Under the pieces are notes generated by a model, which was not told the DNA's origin, searched no databases, and saw nothing but the letters and a program-made list of their open reading frames with translations. From positions 2,232,001 through 2,296,000 of the forward strand of contig NZ_AP024488.1 of NCBI RefSeq assembly GCF_021654575.1: a stretch of DNA of 64,000 nt, read 5' to 3'. Made by a program: the position numbers and the translations under genes. Origin of the DNA: Desulfoluna limicola (GTDB taxonomy: Bacteria; Desulfobacterota; Desulfobacteria; Desulfobacterales; Desulfolunaceae). How positions within the stretch are numbered: position 1 is the first letter of the stretch; each line of letters starts with the position of its first letter. Below, piece by piece: positions 23,139 to 59,055 of the stretch.

Positions 23139-23354
23139 GCCTCCGGCGGCCCTGCCGGGGGCCAAACTTTTGAAAAGTTTGACAAACAGGTTTTAAGGGC
23201 TATTCGCAAGCATCCTCGATGGTGGCAATCCATATGGATCTGGCTTAACGGGTAAGCCGCCTCCTTTTCTCTCAACCCGTCAGGTGTGAGAGAAAAGGAG
23301 GCGGCAACCGAAAAGTTTGCGGAAGCCATGTTCAAAAAGCGACCCGCCGGAGGC
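23139..23354. repeat. Interspersed repeat R1, copy a (216 bp)
   Basis: It starts GCCTCCGGCGGCCCTGCCGG and ends GACCCGCCGGAGGC, so the ends are inverted repeats. After the left end comes the palindrome AAACTTTTGAAAAGTTT and the motif GACAAACAGG. The centre holds a long inverted repeat (GCCGCCTCCTTTTCTCT / AGAGAAAAGGAGGCGGC). Flanks carry TTCAGC and GCTGAA, extending the symmetry. Confidence 0.85.
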
Positions 23355-34880: not shown

Positions 34881-35156
34881 CTACCCCGCCTTTTGCGCTT
34901 GAAAACAATTCGGCGTATCTCGTCCCTCTTCCACCGAAATTCCCCGGACATCGTAAAGTTTTTCCAGCTGCTTGATAATCTGGGGAAGCCTCTCGTCGGT
35001 TTTCACCAGCAATTGCATGCGGCTTTCCGAGGTACCTGTCAGGCCCACCACATAGACCCCGTCGAGGTTGTAGTTGCGGCGTGCAAAGAGGCCGGCAATC
35101 CGGGAGAGAACCCCGGGGTGGTTGGCAACGGTAAGGGTAATCACTTGATCATGCAT
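34881..35156 (-). CDS. ilvN: Acetolactate synthase small (regulatory) subunit
   Basis: This 91-residue ACT-domain protein (VITLTVANHPGVLSRIAGLF, ARRNYNLDGVYVVG) is the regulatory partner of the catalytic subunit encoded immediately upstream. It is the short enteric IlvN-like form, comprising one ACT domain and lacking the longer C-terminal half of many bacterial IlvH proteins. It binds the branched-chain amino acid effector (usually valine) and activates the large subunit. Its ATG overlaps the end of ilvB by 8 bp, indicating translational coupling. It is the last gene of the ilvBN unit. Confidence 0.93.
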   Translation of the reverse strand: MHDQVITLTVANHPGVLSRIAGLFARRNYNLDGVYVVGLTGTSESRMQLLVKTDERLPQIIKQLEKLYDVRGISVEEGRDTPNCFQAQKAG

Positions 35157-36819
35157 GGTGTTCTCCTTCGATCATCCGAGTGTTTGCGGCTCCCGGAGGA
35201 ACCATGGGGTAAACGTTTGCTTCCTGGGGGGTGGCGATGTCCAGAAGTGCCGGACCGTCGGTATCAAGAAAAGCCTTCAGCTCCTTATCGGAACAGGCGG
35301 AAAGGGGCAGCTGCCCCCCCCTTATGCCGAACCCCTTGGCAATGGTGGCAATGTCCGGGTTCCTGTCGTACTGGGAGGCAATGTATCGCCCGCCGAAGAA
35401 CAGCTCCTGCTGCTGGCGAACCAACCCCAGGGCTCCGTTGTTCAAAATGATGATCTTCACGTTCAGGTTCTGCTCGGCCAGGGTGGCCAGCTCCTGGATG
35501 TTCATCATGATGGAGCCGTCACCGGAGAAGCAGATCACCGGGGCCTCCGGATTTGCAAGGGCAGCCCCGATGGCGGCGGGAAGGCCGAACCCCATGGTCC
35601 CCAGGCCACCGGACGTAAGAAGCCGACCTGGTTTTTGATGGGGGTAATACTGTGCCACCCACATCTGGTGCTGCCCCACGTCGGTGGTGACAAAGGCATC
35701 ATCATCGGCAAGGTGGCCGATACGCCGGATAAGAGCGGCGGGTTTTGCATTGTCCAGCTCGCTTTCAGGGGTCGGGTATTGAGTTTTCATGGCGGTGATG
35801 GACTCTTTCCACGCCCTTCGCTTCCTGAACGCCACCATGGGGGCCAGTCGGGAGAGGATCTCGCCTGCATCCCCTTTGATGCTGCAGTCCGATGACCTGA
35901 GCTTATCAATTTCCGCCCCGTCGATATCCATGTGAATGATGCGGGCATGGGGACAAAAGGAGGCAAGCTTGCCGGTGGCCCGGTCGTCGAACCGAACCCC
36001 GGCGGCAATAAGCAGATCCGCCTTGTCCAGGGTGAGGTTTGTGGAACGTGAGCCGTGCATCCCGAGCATCCCCAGCGACATGGGGGAATCAGAAGGCATC
36101 ACGCCAAGCCCCATGAGGGTGGTGACAACGGGAATCCCCGCCCTCTCACACAGGGCCGTCACCTGCGCCCCTGCCCCGGAGTTTACAATGCCCCCGCCCG
36201 CATAGAACACAGGCCGATCTGCCTTATCAATCATCTCTGCCGCGGCAATCAAACCGGCCTCGTCAGGCGATGCCGCGACACGCCTCGTGCCCGGTTCCGG
36301 GAAGGCCTCAACACACAATGTTGCCGTCTGAACATCCTTCGGAATATCCACCCAGACAGGCCCCGGCCGCCCGCTCATGGCAATGCGAAATGCCTCGGGG
36401 ATCACCTCCAGAAGCTCTTCCGCGCTGCGGACCAGAAAGTTGTGTTTGGTCACAGCCAGGCTCATGCCGAAGGTATCGACCTCCTGAAAGGCATCTGTCC
36501 CCATGAGAGACATGGGAGTCTGGCCGGAGATGGCCACCACGGGCACCGAGTCCAGATGGGCATCGGCAATGGCCGTGATCAGGTTCGTCACCCCGGGACC
36601 TGATGTGGCAAAACAGACCGCCGGGCGCCCCGTGGACCGTGCCATGCCTTGGGCAATAAACCCTGCCCCCTGCTCATGACGGGCCAGGACATGGGTCATG
36701 CTGCTCCCCTGCAAGGCATCGTAGAGGGGAAGGTTCGTTCCCCCCGGAATCCCTGCGATGGTCTCAATCCCCTGCCGTTCAAGCATCCGGATAACGATCT
36801 CCGCTCCTGAATACTCCAT
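35149..36819 (-). CDS. ilvB: Acetolactate synthase large (catalytic) subunit
   Basis: This 556-residue thiamine-diphosphate enzyme condenses pyruvate (or pyruvate and 2-oxobutyrate) in the first common step of valine, leucine and isoleucine synthesis. The TPP glutamate region (HVLARHEQGAGFIAQGMARS), the central FAD/DHS-like domain and the C-terminal TPP motif GDGSIMMNIQELATLAEQN...ILNN are all present. The ATG at 36817-36819 has an AAGGAGAG ribosome-binding site; the 26-residue upstream extension is repeat sequence and is rejected. It overlaps ilvN by 8 bp. Upstream are two Val-rich leader peptides and two terminators, so expression is very probably controlled by transcription attenuation responding to Val/Ile charging. 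Confidence 0.96.
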   Translation of the reverse strand: MEYSGAEIVIRMLERQGIETIAGIPGGTNLPLYDALQGSSMTHVLARHEQGAGFIAQGMARSTGRPAVCFATSGPGVTNLITAIADAHLDSVPVVAISGQTPMSLMGTDAFQEVDTFGMSLAVTKHNFLVRSAEELLEVIPEAFRIAMSGRPGPVWVDIPKDVQTATLCVEAFPEPGTRRVAASPDEAGLIAAAEMIDKADRPVFYAGGGIVNSGAGAQVTALCERAGIPVVTTLMGLGVMPSDSPMSLGMLGMHGSRSTNLTLDKADLLIAAGVRFDDRATGKLASFCPHARIIHMDIDGAEIDKLRSSDCSIKGDAGEILSRLAPMVAFRKRRAWKESITAMKTQYPTPESELDNAKPAALIRRIGHLADDDAFVTTDVGQHQMWVAQYYPHQKPGRLLTSGGLGTMGFGLPAAIGAALANPEAPVICFSGDGSIMMNIQELATLAEQNLNVKIIILNNGALGLVRQQQELFFGGRYIASQYDRNPDIATIAKGFGIRGGQLPLSACSDKELKAFLDTDGPALLDIATPQEANVYPMVPPGAANTRMIEGEHHA

Positions 36820-36850
36820 GGTTCTCTCCTTTCCTTGTGAATAAAACAAC

Positions 36851-37053
36851 GCCTCCGGCAGCCCTGCCGGGGGCCAAACGCTTGAAAAGTTTGACAAACA
36901 GGTATTAAAATCGATTTTGACGATGCCAATGCTTTCAACTTATTAAACTGGCAGCAGCCTCTGCCTTCAGCCCCTTTCAGGGCTGAAGGGTGAGGCTGAT
37001 GCAACCGGAAAGTTTTTGGTCCAGCTTTTTTCAAAAAGCCGGCCGCCGGAGGC
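36851..37053. repeat. Interspersed repeat R1, copy b (203 bp)
   Basis: It starts GCCTCCGGCAGCCCTGCCGG and ends GGCCGCCGGAGGC. It includes CTTGAAAAGTTTGACAAACA and an inner inverted repeat (GCCTTCAGCCC / GGGCTGAAGG). It lies between the second ilv attenuator and ilvB, inside the untranslated leader. Confidence 0.85.
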
Positions 37054-37064
37054 ATCACTGAATA

Positions 37065-37104
37065 AAAACAAAAAAACCCCGGTCGGTTGTTCCGGCCGGG
37101 GTTT
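37065..37104 (-). terminator. ilv attenuator 2
   Basis: Read on the minus strand: AACCCCGGCCGG, loop AACAA, CCGACCGGGGTT and a T-rich tract. It lies about 29 bp after the stop of the second leader peptide and upstream of ilvB, the position expected for an attenuator terminator. Confidence 0.9.
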
Positions 37105-37132
37105 TGATCAGCTTGATGTTCGTCTCTGATGC

Positions 37133-37222
37133 TCACCCCGGCCCGCGCACGCACACCACCACACCCACCACCACGACGACGATGGCGATCAAAGAAGAGA
37201 TATGTACGGAGCGGTTCAGCAT
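37133..37222 (-). CDS. ilv leader peptide 2 (Val/Ile-rich)
   Basis: A 29-residue peptide begins at the ATG 37220-37222, with an AAAGG sequence upstream. Its C-terminal half reads IAIVVVVVGVVVCVRGPG, containing eight or more valines and two nearby isoleucines. It is followed directly by an intrinsic terminator and then ilvBN. This is the layout of enterobacterial ilvB leader peptides: ribosomes stalling at the valine run when charged tRNA is scarce would favour an antiterminator. The peptide itself probably has no function. It was too short for routine gene calling and was found by reading the region upstream of ilvB. Confidence 0.88.
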   Translation of the reverse strand: MLNRSVHISSLIAIVVVVVGVVVCVRGPG

Positions 37223-37251
37223 GAAGCGTTGTTTCCTTTGGGGGTGTATAA

Positions 37252-37288
37252 AATAAAAAAGCCCGGTCGGTGTTAACCGGCCGGGCTT
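37252..37288 (-). terminator. ilv attenuator 1
   Basis: Read on the minus strand: AGCCCGGCCGGT, loop TAAC, ACCGACCGGGCT, then TTTTTTATTT. It closely resembles attenuator 2 (CCCGGCCGG / CCGACCGGG) and follows the first leader peptide. Confidence 0.9.
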
Positions 37289-37312
37289 TGTCTCATCGTA
37301 TGGGAGAAAGCC

Positions 37313-37405
37313 TCAGCCGGAGCACACCACCACGCGCACCACCACACCCACGACACGTACGGTCATGTTGGAGGCAGTCATCATGGTGTTTACAGGGCTG
37401 AGCAC
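37313..37405 (-). CDS. ilv leader peptide 1 (Val-rich)
   Basis: A 30-residue peptide most likely starts at the GTG 37403-37405, which has GAAAGGAAA about 6 nt upstream; ATGs at 37384 and 37381 lack a ribosome-binding site. The C-terminal half reads VRVVGVVVRVVVCSG, rich in valine codons (mostly GTG) and without isoleucine. It is followed by attenuator 1 and then by the second leader peptide and attenuator 2. The two leaders share the V-runs ending in V-V-V-C, implying duplication of the leader-attenuator module. Confidence 0.85.
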   Translation of the reverse strand: MLSPVNTMMTASNMTVRVVGVVVRVVVCSG

Positions 37406-37442: not shown

Positions 37443-37473
37443 TTAACATGAAGACATCAAAGATGTTTGTCAA
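37443..37473 (-). promoter_or_regulatory. Candidate ilv operon promoter
   Basis: On the minus strand TTGACA (37473-37468) precedes leader peptide 1. The best -10 candidate, TGTTAA, sits at about 19 bp spacing, which is longer than ideal, so the assignment is tentative. Confidence 0.3.
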
Positions 37474-37490: not shown

Positions 37491-37556
37491 GCCTCCGGCG
37501 GCCCTGCCGGGGGCCAAACTTTTGGAAAGTTTGACAAACAGGCCTTAGACCGGAGC
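37491..37556. repeat. Short R1-end repeat
   Basis: GCCTCCGGCGGCCCTGCCGG, then AAACTTTTGGAAAGTTT and GACAAACAGG, closing with ACCGGAGC: a 66-bp version of the R1 left end, between the ilv promoter and the methyltransferase gene. Confidence 0.75.
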
Positions 37557-42101: not shown

Positions 42102-42311
42102 GCCTCCGGCGGCCCTGGCGGGGGCCAAACTTTTGAAAAGTTTGACAAACAGGATTTGAGCACAGTTTCGATTACATCGCCGATGCCTTCAATCCATACA
42201 ACTGGGGCTTAACGGGTCTGTGGTTCCCTTTTCTGTGAGCTACTACGGGGTAAAGGGAACCACAACCGGAAAGTTTTCGGGGCTCATTTTAAAAAGCGAC
42301 CCGCAGGAGGC
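42102..42311. repeat. Interspersed repeat R1, copy c (210 bp)
   Basis: GCCTCCGGCGGCCCTGGCGG, AAACTTTTGAAAAGTTT, GACAAACAGG at the left; GCGACCCGCAGGAGGC at the right; inner inverted repeat GTGGTTCCCTTT / AAAGGGAACCAC. It overlaps the false N-terminal extension of the beta-barrel frame. Confidence 0.85.
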
Positions 42312-46122: not shown

Positions 46123-46641
46123 CTTGTGGTTGACCCTCGTTTCTCGACTGGGCAGGCTGTCCCCTTCGCTCCACTCCCATTACAGAAGCTTCCACACTAC
46201 TACGAGACAGTCCGCCCCTGTGCCCTGCATTGGTACTCTTTGGATGCGGATCTTCCACACCGATTCTCCCTTAACATCAGGACGACAGGTTCTCATGTTC
46301 CGCATCAACGCCTGTTTCTGAATTCATGCCACCTGAATGCCGGCTGCCGCTTCGCCCGTTGTCCAGATTACGTCGAAACTTATCCCGGAAATACGCTCGG
46401 TCCCCGGTTTTGACAGCACTTCCTCATATCGACACCCCATCAGTGGTTCATTTGCATTCATCTCTTCAGAACACACCTGACAGATTTCTTTCTGCCTTTT
46501 CCCTATCGCTCACGACCATCGCTCTTAATGAAAGCCGCATAGGGCGGTTTGGGCCCAATCTCTGGTGATCGAGTCCGAGGGGCCTTCCCTCATCATTGAT
46601 ACAGCAGGAAAGAGGTTCTTCTTTCGTTCATGACACACGAG
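45545..46641 (-). mobile_element. Truncated group II intron at distal end of the integron array
   Basis: About 520 bp of non-coding sequence (46122-46641) precedes the broken RT frame, the size expected for intron domains I-IV, beginning near GTGTGTCATGAACG (46641 leftwards), a GTGYG-like 5' end. The 3' half, including domains V and VI, is absent. It abuts the truncated attC of the last cassette. The 5' boundary is a best guess. Confidence 0.6.
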
Positions 46642-48233: not shown

Positions 48234-50245
48234 GTACGCCCGGCATGGGCGTGATCTTATGAGGTGACCCGCAAGTTTTATCGGGAAGTCCTCTGTACGT
48301 GAATCCTGCTGAGCTTACAACGGTTTAGCATAAGTACTAGCCTAAGACAAGGGCGGCACCGTGAGGTTCCGTCTGGAGGAGATGGAGCGAAGCGGAATCA
48401 CGAGCGGTAGCGAGAGTGACCGGAGGGAACGGTCACTCTACGGCAAATCTATGAGCCGACGAACAGAAACAGCATACAAGGCTAAGTCTCCGGATGAGTC
48501 AGCACAACATGACGAAGTCCCGGATTCGAGGAGATATGGTAAATGCTGCGGTTGTGTAGAGAAAGATCACGCAATTATACCCCTCAAGGGGGCACTGAAC
48601 TGAGTCCGGGGAGACCTGACCGACATGGCGGTTGCATAGGGCATCAGCGCCTGCCGTGGAAACACGACGGGTGATCGGTCAGGAGTCAGCAGAGGTCATA
48701 GTAGGTGTGAAATGACGTCCCTTTGTTCCAAGGGCGTTAATGAAACGAGCCGCGAGATACCCCGAGGTAATCGCTGGAGGTCTCACCCACTGAAGGACCG
48801 AACATGAAGGATGAGGAGGTGACATCATGAGCTTGCAGTACATAATGAATCCGAACGGAGGAATGTTATTGCAGCGCGTCATGGAGGGAATCCCCTCAGG
48901 AGACAACCTACTGGAACAGATCCTTTCTACCGAAAATGTGCACCATGCATGGAAACGGGTAAGGTCCAATAAAGGGGCATCCGGTATCGACAACATCAAG
49001 GTAACGGATTTCCCTGAAGTCTATCGGCCCAAATGGGAAGGGATCAAGAAATCGTTAATGGAAGGCACCTATATGCCATCACCTGTTCTGCGCGTGGAGA
49101 TTCCCAAGCCGGACGGCAGCAAGCGTCCTCTTGGGATACCAACAGTACTGGACAGGCTTATTCAACAATCTATCGCACAAGTTCTCTCAAGAATATTCGA
49201 TCCCGGTTTTTCCGAGCATAGCTATGGGTTCAGACCAGGCCGTTCCGGCCATCAGGCTGTCAGAGCGATGAAACGGAATATTCGGGATGGATACTACGTG
49301 GCAGTGGACATGGACCTCTCTAAGTTCTTTGACAAGGTGAAGCACGATACCCTTATGGCGCGCGTATCCCGGAAAATCAAAGACAAGCGAGTCCTGAAAC
49401 TTATCGGTAAATATTTACGAGCCGGAGTGGTCGTTGACGGTCGTCTTCAGTGCACCCGAGAGGGTGTACCTCAAGGTGGGCCTCTCTCTCCTTTGCTCGC
49501 AAATGTCATGCTGGATGACCTCGATAAAGAGCTGGAGAAACGAAATCACAGATTTGCGCGATACGCCGACGATTTCACCATTCTCGTTAAGAGCCAAAGG
49601 TCTGGGGAACGCGTGATGCAGAGCATCAAGCGGTATCTTGAACGCCGACTGAAGCTGACGGTGAATGAGAAGAAAAGTCAGGTAGATCGTGTAAACCGGT
49701 GCTCATTTCTTGGGTTTACTTTTATTCGAGGGAAAATCAGGTGGACCGAAAAAGCCTTTGCCAAGTTCAAGAGTGAATTGAAACGTTTGACAGGCCGAAG
49801 TTGGTTTGTCCCAATGGACTACAGGATGAAGAAACTCGGGGAATATATCCGAGGCTGGATCAACTACTACGGGATCTCGGAGTACTACCGCCCGATCCCG
49901 GGGCTCGATCAGTGGCTGAGGAGGCGCATCAGGATGTGCTACTGGAAGCAGTGGCCAAGGTGTCGCACCCGTGTTCGGAATCTTATCAGACTGGGATGTC
50001 CGTTGGACGACGCGATAGCGGTTGGAATGAGCCGGAAAGGACCGTGGCATCTGGCGAAAACATTTGCCACACAACGTGCTATGAGCAACGAATGACTTGA
50101 AAGGCAGGGCCTGATTTCTATTAAAGAGAAGTGGGTGAAGATCCATTACCCGGCTACGGCCCGGTAGTCTTTGTGAACCGCCCGGTGCGGACCCGCATGC
50201 CGGGTGGTGTGGGGGCTGGGGGAGAGAAACCCCCGGCTACCCGAT
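48234..50245 (+). mobile_element. Group IIC-attC intron (2012 bp)
   Basis: It begins GTACGCCCGGCATGGGCGTG (group IIC introns typically begin GTGCGCCC) and ends with a domain V/VI-like region (GAACCGCCCGGTGCGG, CGCATGCCGGGTGGTG, CCCCCGGCTACCCGAT). It encodes one RT/maturase. It is inserted within the R'' core of an attC, in the orientation opposite to the cassettes, which is the known habit of group IIC-attC introns targeting the attC bottom strand. Removal restores TTTGT+TAGAT. Confidence 0.88.
48827..50095 (+). CDS. Group IIC intron reverse transcriptase/maturase
   Basis: This 422-residue multifunctional protein would splice and copy its host intron. RT blocks are complete: VRSNKGASGIDNIKVTDFPE, PKPDGSKRPLGIPTVLDRLI, EHSYGFRPGRSGHQAV, VAVDMDLSKFFDKVKHDTL, TREGVPQGGPLSPLLANVML and the catalytic FARYADDFTIL. 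The X/maturase domain contains LGEYIRGWINYYGISEYYRP. There is no H-N-H endonuclease, as usual for class C introns, which insert into folded or single-stranded targets. The ATG at 48827 has a strong GAGGAGGTG ribosome-binding site. All catalytic motifs appear intact, so the intron could be active. Confidence 0.95.
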   Translation: MSLQYIMNPNGGMLLQRVMEGIPSGDNLLEQILSTENVHHAWKRVRSNKGASGIDNIKVTDFPEVYRPKWEGIKKSLMEGTYMPSPVLRVEIPKPDGSKRPLGIPTVLDRLIQQSIAQVLSRIFDPGFSEHSYGFRPGRSGHQAVRAMKRNIRDGYYVAVDMDLSKFFDKVKHDTLMARVSRKIKDKRVLKLIGKYLRAGVVVDGRLQCTREGVPQGGPLSPLLANVMLDDLDKELEKRNHRFARYADDFTILVKSQRSGERVMQSIKRYLERRLKLTVNEKKSQVDRVNRCSFLGFTFIRGKIRWTEKAFAKFKSELKRLTGRSWFVPMDYRMKKLGEYIRGWINYYGISEYYRPIPGLDQWLRRRIRMCYWKQWPRCRTRVRNLIRLGCPLDDAIAVGMSRKGPWHLAKTFATQRAMSNE

Positions 50246-58942: not shown

Positions 58943-59055
58943 GGCTCCGGGAGGTCGGAAGCACATGCGAACCAACCATTGACGTGAAGGCTTGTTTGTC
59001 AAACCCACTTTTTAAATCAGGTAAAAGCTTGGCCCCCGGCAGGGCCGCCGGAGGC
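58943..59055. repeat. Interspersed repeat, short R1 type, reversed (113 bp)
   Basis: It starts GGCTCCGGGAGG and ends GGCAGGGCCGCCGGAGGC. It contains GGCTTGTTTGTCAAAC, the reverse of the GACAAACAGG block. It marks the return to normal chromosome right after intI. Confidence 0.75.

Follow-up and report, generated by a model that had tools for sequence, protein, structure and literature searches.

A conserved pair of predicted valine attenuators in series upstream of ilvBN in Desulfoluna limicola

According to attenuation theory, transcription terminates when translation of a leader peptide reaches its stop codon and reads through when ribosomes stall. The region upstream of ilvBN in Desulfoluna limicola raises the question of whether two such attenuators can stand in series before the same genes, whether a single amino acid serves as the signal for both, and what the pairing would do to the response. 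The locus was analyzed in a window of 64 kb, the whole stretch of DNA under study, and compared with related genomes and with acetolactate synthase loci elsewhere.

Two leader-terminator modules upstream of ilvBN

Upstream of ilvBN, the minus strand carries both leader modules in the interval that separates ilvB (35149..36819, minus strand, ATG at 36819) from a divergently oriented methyltransferase gene (37565, plus strand). ilvB encodes an acetolactate synthase large subunit of the AHAS I (E. coli ilvB) type and is followed by ilvN (34881..35156, minus strand), encoding the small regulatory subunit of 91 amino acids. The best NCBIfam match of ilvB, PRK08155, falls under its curated cut-off, but TIGR00118 is above cut-off. 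On the ilvB tree the gene groups with those of E. coli, Azospira, and Accumulibacter. It is only ~46% identical to the second AHAS gene of the same genome (C1:2585954), which has no leader.

Module 1 begins with a leader ORF of 30 codons (37313..37405, minus strand, GTG at 37405 to TGA at 37313), which has the Shine-Dalgarno (SD) sequence GAAAGGAAAG and encodes the peptide MLSPVNTMMTASNMTVRVVGVVVRVVVCSG; its Val run has 8 Val in 10 codons, and its end carries VRVVGVVVRVVVCSG. Strand 2 (CCGGCTGAGGCTTTC; 37306..37320, minus strand), the predicted 5' arm of an antiterminator, overlaps the stop codon and also pairs with a protector, CTCAGC, at the leader start. Terminator 1 (37255..37289, minus strand) consists of strand 3 (AAAGCCCGGCCGG) and strand 4 (CCGACCGGGCTTT) with a U-tract; its hairpin of ~-21 kcal/mol begins 23 nt past the leader 1 stop. 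Module 2 has a leader ORF of 29 codons including 10 Val (37133..37222, minus strand, ATG at 37222 to TGA at 37133), with the SD sequence CAAAGGAAAC and the peptide MLNRSVHISSLIAIVVVVVGVVVCVRGPG; the ORF carries IAIVVVVVGVVVCVRGPG, and here too there are 8 Val in 10 codons. Its strand 2 (GGCCGGGGTGAG; 37132..37143, minus strand) likewise overlaps the stop codon as antiterminator 5' arm and is identical in 4/4 species of the genus. Terminator 2 (37070..37105, minus strand), formed by strand 3 (AAAACCCCGGCCGG) and strand 4 (CCGACCGGGGTTT) with a U-tract, begins 27 nt past the leader 2 stop, also at ~-21 kcal/mol. The two attenuators in series before ilvBN that an earlier note on this DNA had described, each with a strong T-tract terminator within about 30 bp of its leader, are therefore both present.

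Apart from leaders 1 and 2, no short ORF in the 64 kb reaches 6 Val per 10 residues. In Markov-1 shuffles (n = 20 windows), ORFs at or above this threshold averaged 0.05, and no ORF with at least 7 Val in 10 was found in the 20 shuffled windows, with or without a terminator.

In each module, strand 2 at the leader stop can pair with strand 3. This 2:3 pairing uses the terminator 5' arm, so antiterminator and terminator are mutually exclusive. The alternative antiterminator folds that the earlier note had proposed to look for thus exist in both modules of the window, and mutually exclusive 2:3 and 3:4 folds were obtained for 8/8 modules of four species in the genus, with energies of ~-18 to -22 kcal/mol for the terminator only and ~-17 to -27 kcal/mol for the antiterminator. 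The 2:3 pairing was matched by 0-6 of 200 dinucleotide shuffles in each of these eight modules. This shuffle test is crude: the proven E. coli ivbL attenuator gives no signal in it, which indicates that the test is insensitive, that only positives are informative, and that negatives, such as that of the L135 tandem described below, mean nothing. A protector (1:2) hairpin of module 1, GTGCTCAGC with GCTGAG(A)C, is clear in the folds of three genus members (G004, G005, and G001), and the complementary letters are also kept in the window, that is, in 4/4 species; the 1:2 pairing of module 2 varies between species. The terminator stems of the two modules differ in the orientation of one base pair, G-C in module 1 but C-G in module 2, again in 4/4 species. 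This swap makes cross-module 3:4 pairing (~-14 to -16 kcal/mol) weaker than each module's own (~-18 to -20 kcal/mol). We infer that it may insulate the modules from each other; one neutral ancestral difference would look alike. Rfam was searched with the gathering threshold and again with E<=5; no leader family scored above cut-off, and weak matches to His_leader and Trp_leader were both below it.

The earlier note had placed a repeat element between attenuator 2 and ilvB; this element does exist, and it is dispersed. The palindrome GGCCCCCGGCAGGGCnGCCGGAGGC, in several copies adjoining CCTGTTTGTCAAACTTTTCAA, occurs 7 times in the 64 kb versus 0 expected. Two copies flank the leader region, one between attenuator 2 and ilvB (36842-36902) and another upstream of the promoter (37491-37542); the other five include those at 23139-23190, 42102-42153, and 59031-59055. 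The repeat is present in G004, and an unrelated hairpin takes its place in G005 and G001, indicating that it is not part of the attenuator device. The window also has Rfam matches to group II introns (RF01999, RF02001, RF01998, and RF00029) at 46475-46591 (minus strand) and 48355-50245 (plus strand).

Conservation, amino acid specificity, and transcription unit

This ilvB is present in 4/6 genomes of the genus (81% identical to that of the window), and all four carriers (G000, G004, G005, and G001) have both leaders and both terminators. The pair, which the earlier note had suggested seeking in related species, was thus found in every genus member with this ilvB. The frame, SD sequence, GTG start, and Val run of leader 1 are common to the four species, with one in-frame 3-nt indel; leader 2 shares its frame and Val run among them, and its indels are multiples of three. 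Nine Val columns are invariant in leader 1, one of them being the GTG start codon, which is read as Met, and eight are invariant in leader 2; some of these columns show synonymous changes. At eight sites examined for further Val runs in the genus, no other convincing leader-terminator module was found. Judged by this conservation, which comes mostly from four related genomes, the sequence upstream of ilvBN is a real, conserved candidate tandem attenuator.

Conservation is less even in some details. The SD sequence of leader 2 is clear in the window and weak (AACGGA) in G004, G005, and G001, suggesting that module 2 may be poorly translated in those three, and module 1 of G004 shows a loss of Val and Cys residues from its leader as well as a weaker antiterminator strand 2. 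Both observations would fit a single active module, the other being a decaying duplicate or a constitutive terminator or insulator. We consider this unlikely, since reading frame, Val run, terminator, and antiterminator all persist in both modules of 4/4 species, and ilvBN would be shut off behind a dead constitutive terminator.

If both modules are active, they might still read different signals. The earlier note had envisaged valine alone being read first and then valine plus isoleucine, and the window's leader 2 does have Ile codons beside its Val run; AHAS, moreover, serves the Val/Leu and Ile pathways alike. Combinatorial control, in which module 1 would read valine while module 2 would read isoleucine (or leucine) in addition to valine, is nevertheless an unlikely reading, to which we give slightly less weight than to a single active module. 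The Ile codons are not kept in G005 (SSLVVCVVVVVVCV) and G001 (TTLVVCVVVVVVCV), so that isoleucine reading by leader 2 is not supported. In both leaders, Val, with 8-9 invariant positions in each, forms the only constant-residue run of the control block, and the single leader of E. coli ilvBN is likewise Val-rich. By their codons, then, both leaders are predicted to read valine.

A putative promoter, TTGACA - 17 nt - CATGTT (37445..37473, minus strand), with a weak -10 element (CAnnnT), precedes leader 1. Its TTGACA is found in 4/4 genus members and is conserved only at this position. A promoter between the modules, which the earlier note had named as the feature that would make them separate units, was looked for: none is conserved there in the four species, and a strict scan found none on the minus strand. 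The end of T-tract 1 is 32 nt from start codon 2 in the window and 32-50 nt across species. Two transcription units, with leader 2 under its own promoter and attenuators acting in parallel rather than serially, are very improbable, for the moderate promoter-like match between the modules in the window, TTAACA-17-TTTTAT inside terminator 1, lacks a counterpart in the three relatives, and the gap is short and empty in the strict scan. We favor, with good though not full confidence, a single transcript that would carry, one after the other ahead of ilvBN, two complete attenuators sensing valine by way of the translating ribosome.

Origin and distribution of tandem leaders

The earlier note considered the modules similar enough to be a duplication. 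Within one genome, modules 1 and 2 are indeed alike beyond shuffles, with z of 7.5-10, a score to which shared Val coding adds. Their first 45 nt are unlike each other; the modules likely arose by duplication, though perhaps not of the entire unit.

Distribution of leaders was analyzed for 105 acetolactate synthase upstream regions, of which 39 had one Val/Ile-type leader with terminator and 6 had two. The six tandems are those of the four genus members, L135 (from genome G517 of the same phylum, at 55% identity), and L060, which is upstream of ilvB in Breznakibacter xylanolyticus (Bacteroidota). The L135 and L060 tandems, of Val/Leu type, look like real pairs, with a hairpin and T-tract for each leader. 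In L060, both Val runs share the identical codon stretch GTCGTGGTCGTGGTGGTCT, which suggests duplication there as well. Among 25 further AHAS loci of the same order as the window, one leader was found in six and two in none. Single Ile/Leu/Val leaders with terminators also precede the second-type AHAS gene in other families of this order (L089, L092, L095, L096, L101, and L103).

The tandem state mapped onto the ilvB tree as three changes. L135 is sister to a clade comprising the single-leader G053 and the genus, a placement that fits either two gains or a single gain with a loss in G053. L060 is separate, on a long branch whose placement is unsure. Orthologues elsewhere are single-leader where a leader was detected (E. 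coli ivbL type), indicating that one module is the usual state. The tandem is thus a derived state, recurrent in a few lineages. No close ilvB relatives were found in the family of G517 or in the order of Breznakibacter. The AHAS I ilvBN cassette is patchy (5/148 genera in the class sample and 13/246 in the phylum sample). Within its order, the ilvB of Breznakibacter was closely matched in 1/149 genomes, namely its own. This patchiness and isolation suggest horizontal spread, often along with the leader.

Predicted serial attenuation and comparison with known systems

From the ORFs, the folds, their conservation, and the single conserved promoter element, we infer how ribosomes may behave at this locus, how the two modules may combine, and what benefit may follow. 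One transcript would start upstream of leader 1. When the Val codons are read, the ribosome at the stop codon would cover strand 2, and the 3:4 terminator would form. With uncharged tRNA-Val, the ribosome would stall in the Val run and leave strand 2 free, so that the 2:3 antiterminator could form and the polymerase proceed. Once the polymerase had passed module 1, a new ribosome would repeat the same test at module 2. Transcription of ilvBN would need read-through of both terminators, so if the modules are independent, their read-through probabilities multiply, and because d ln(Q1Q2) = d ln Q1 + d ln Q2, their logarithmic sensitivities add. Most likely, then, the two attenuators would multiply read-through on one signal, giving less leak and a steeper response, and the tandem arrangement probably provides tighter, steeper control. 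The theory of Elf and Ehrenberg addresses what makes attenuation hypersensitive to amino acid limitation (PMC1183508); their text makes no mention of tandem leaders or serial attenuators (PMC1183508).

A limited search of the open-access literature found no same-amino-acid tandem leader-peptide attenuators in amino-acid operons; on same-signal tandem leader attenuators, only mgtCBR and antibiotic-resistance leader pairs turned up in open-access sources. The predicted mechanism is standard; the interest lies in one signal being compounded and in the reappearance of this design across unrelated lineages. The broader proposal that same-signal tandem attenuators are a distinct, repeatedly evolved acetolactate synthase design, kept orthogonal by the flipped stem pair and selected because two serial tests would leak less and respond more steeply to tRNA-Val charging than one, seems to us about evenly balanced between right and wrong. 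With a natural same-amino-acid pair, one can ask directly whether attenuators are compounded in cells for sensitivity or for less leak, as is thought of tandem riboswitches. For synthetic biology, it would be a ready part, with two possibly orthogonal attenuators on one signal.

Several known leaders share part of this arrangement. In some Gammaproteobacteria, the rimP-leader has a second upstream terminator, giving tandem terminators and an antiterminator in the 5' leader, and the stem motif of one terminator is the inverse of the other's, according to the portion of PMC2965389 on this RNA; that portion describes no amino-acid leader peptide, whereas Val leader peptides are present here. Tandem T-boxes are same-signal sensors in series (PMC7583486), and tandem TPP riboswitches, each with its own expression platform, act as a more digital switch, as summarized in a passage of PMC2258182 citing Welz and Breaker 2007. 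Both resemble the ilvBN pair in placing same-signal sensors in series, but they sense by an RNA aptamer or by tRNA binding, whereas here sensing would be by ribosome stalling on a leader peptide. The Salmonella mgtCBR leader likewise has two short ORFs within one leader, mgtM and mgtP, as tandem attenuators; these respond to different signals (ATP and proline) and are additive, and Rho-dependent termination has been discussed for them (PMC3641672). In contrast, each ilvBN module has a strong intrinsic terminator, and Val alone is conserved in the two control blocks, pointing to one amino acid for both. Closest is E. coli ivbL-ilvBN (AHAS I), which is alike in its gene pair, with an AHAS I-type ilvB and a small ilvN behind a Val-run leader ORF, in ribosome-mediated control, as predicted here, and in a terminator 25-30 nt past the leader stop. 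E. coli and the other single-leader orthologues have one leader and one terminator, whereas four members of this genus have two of each.
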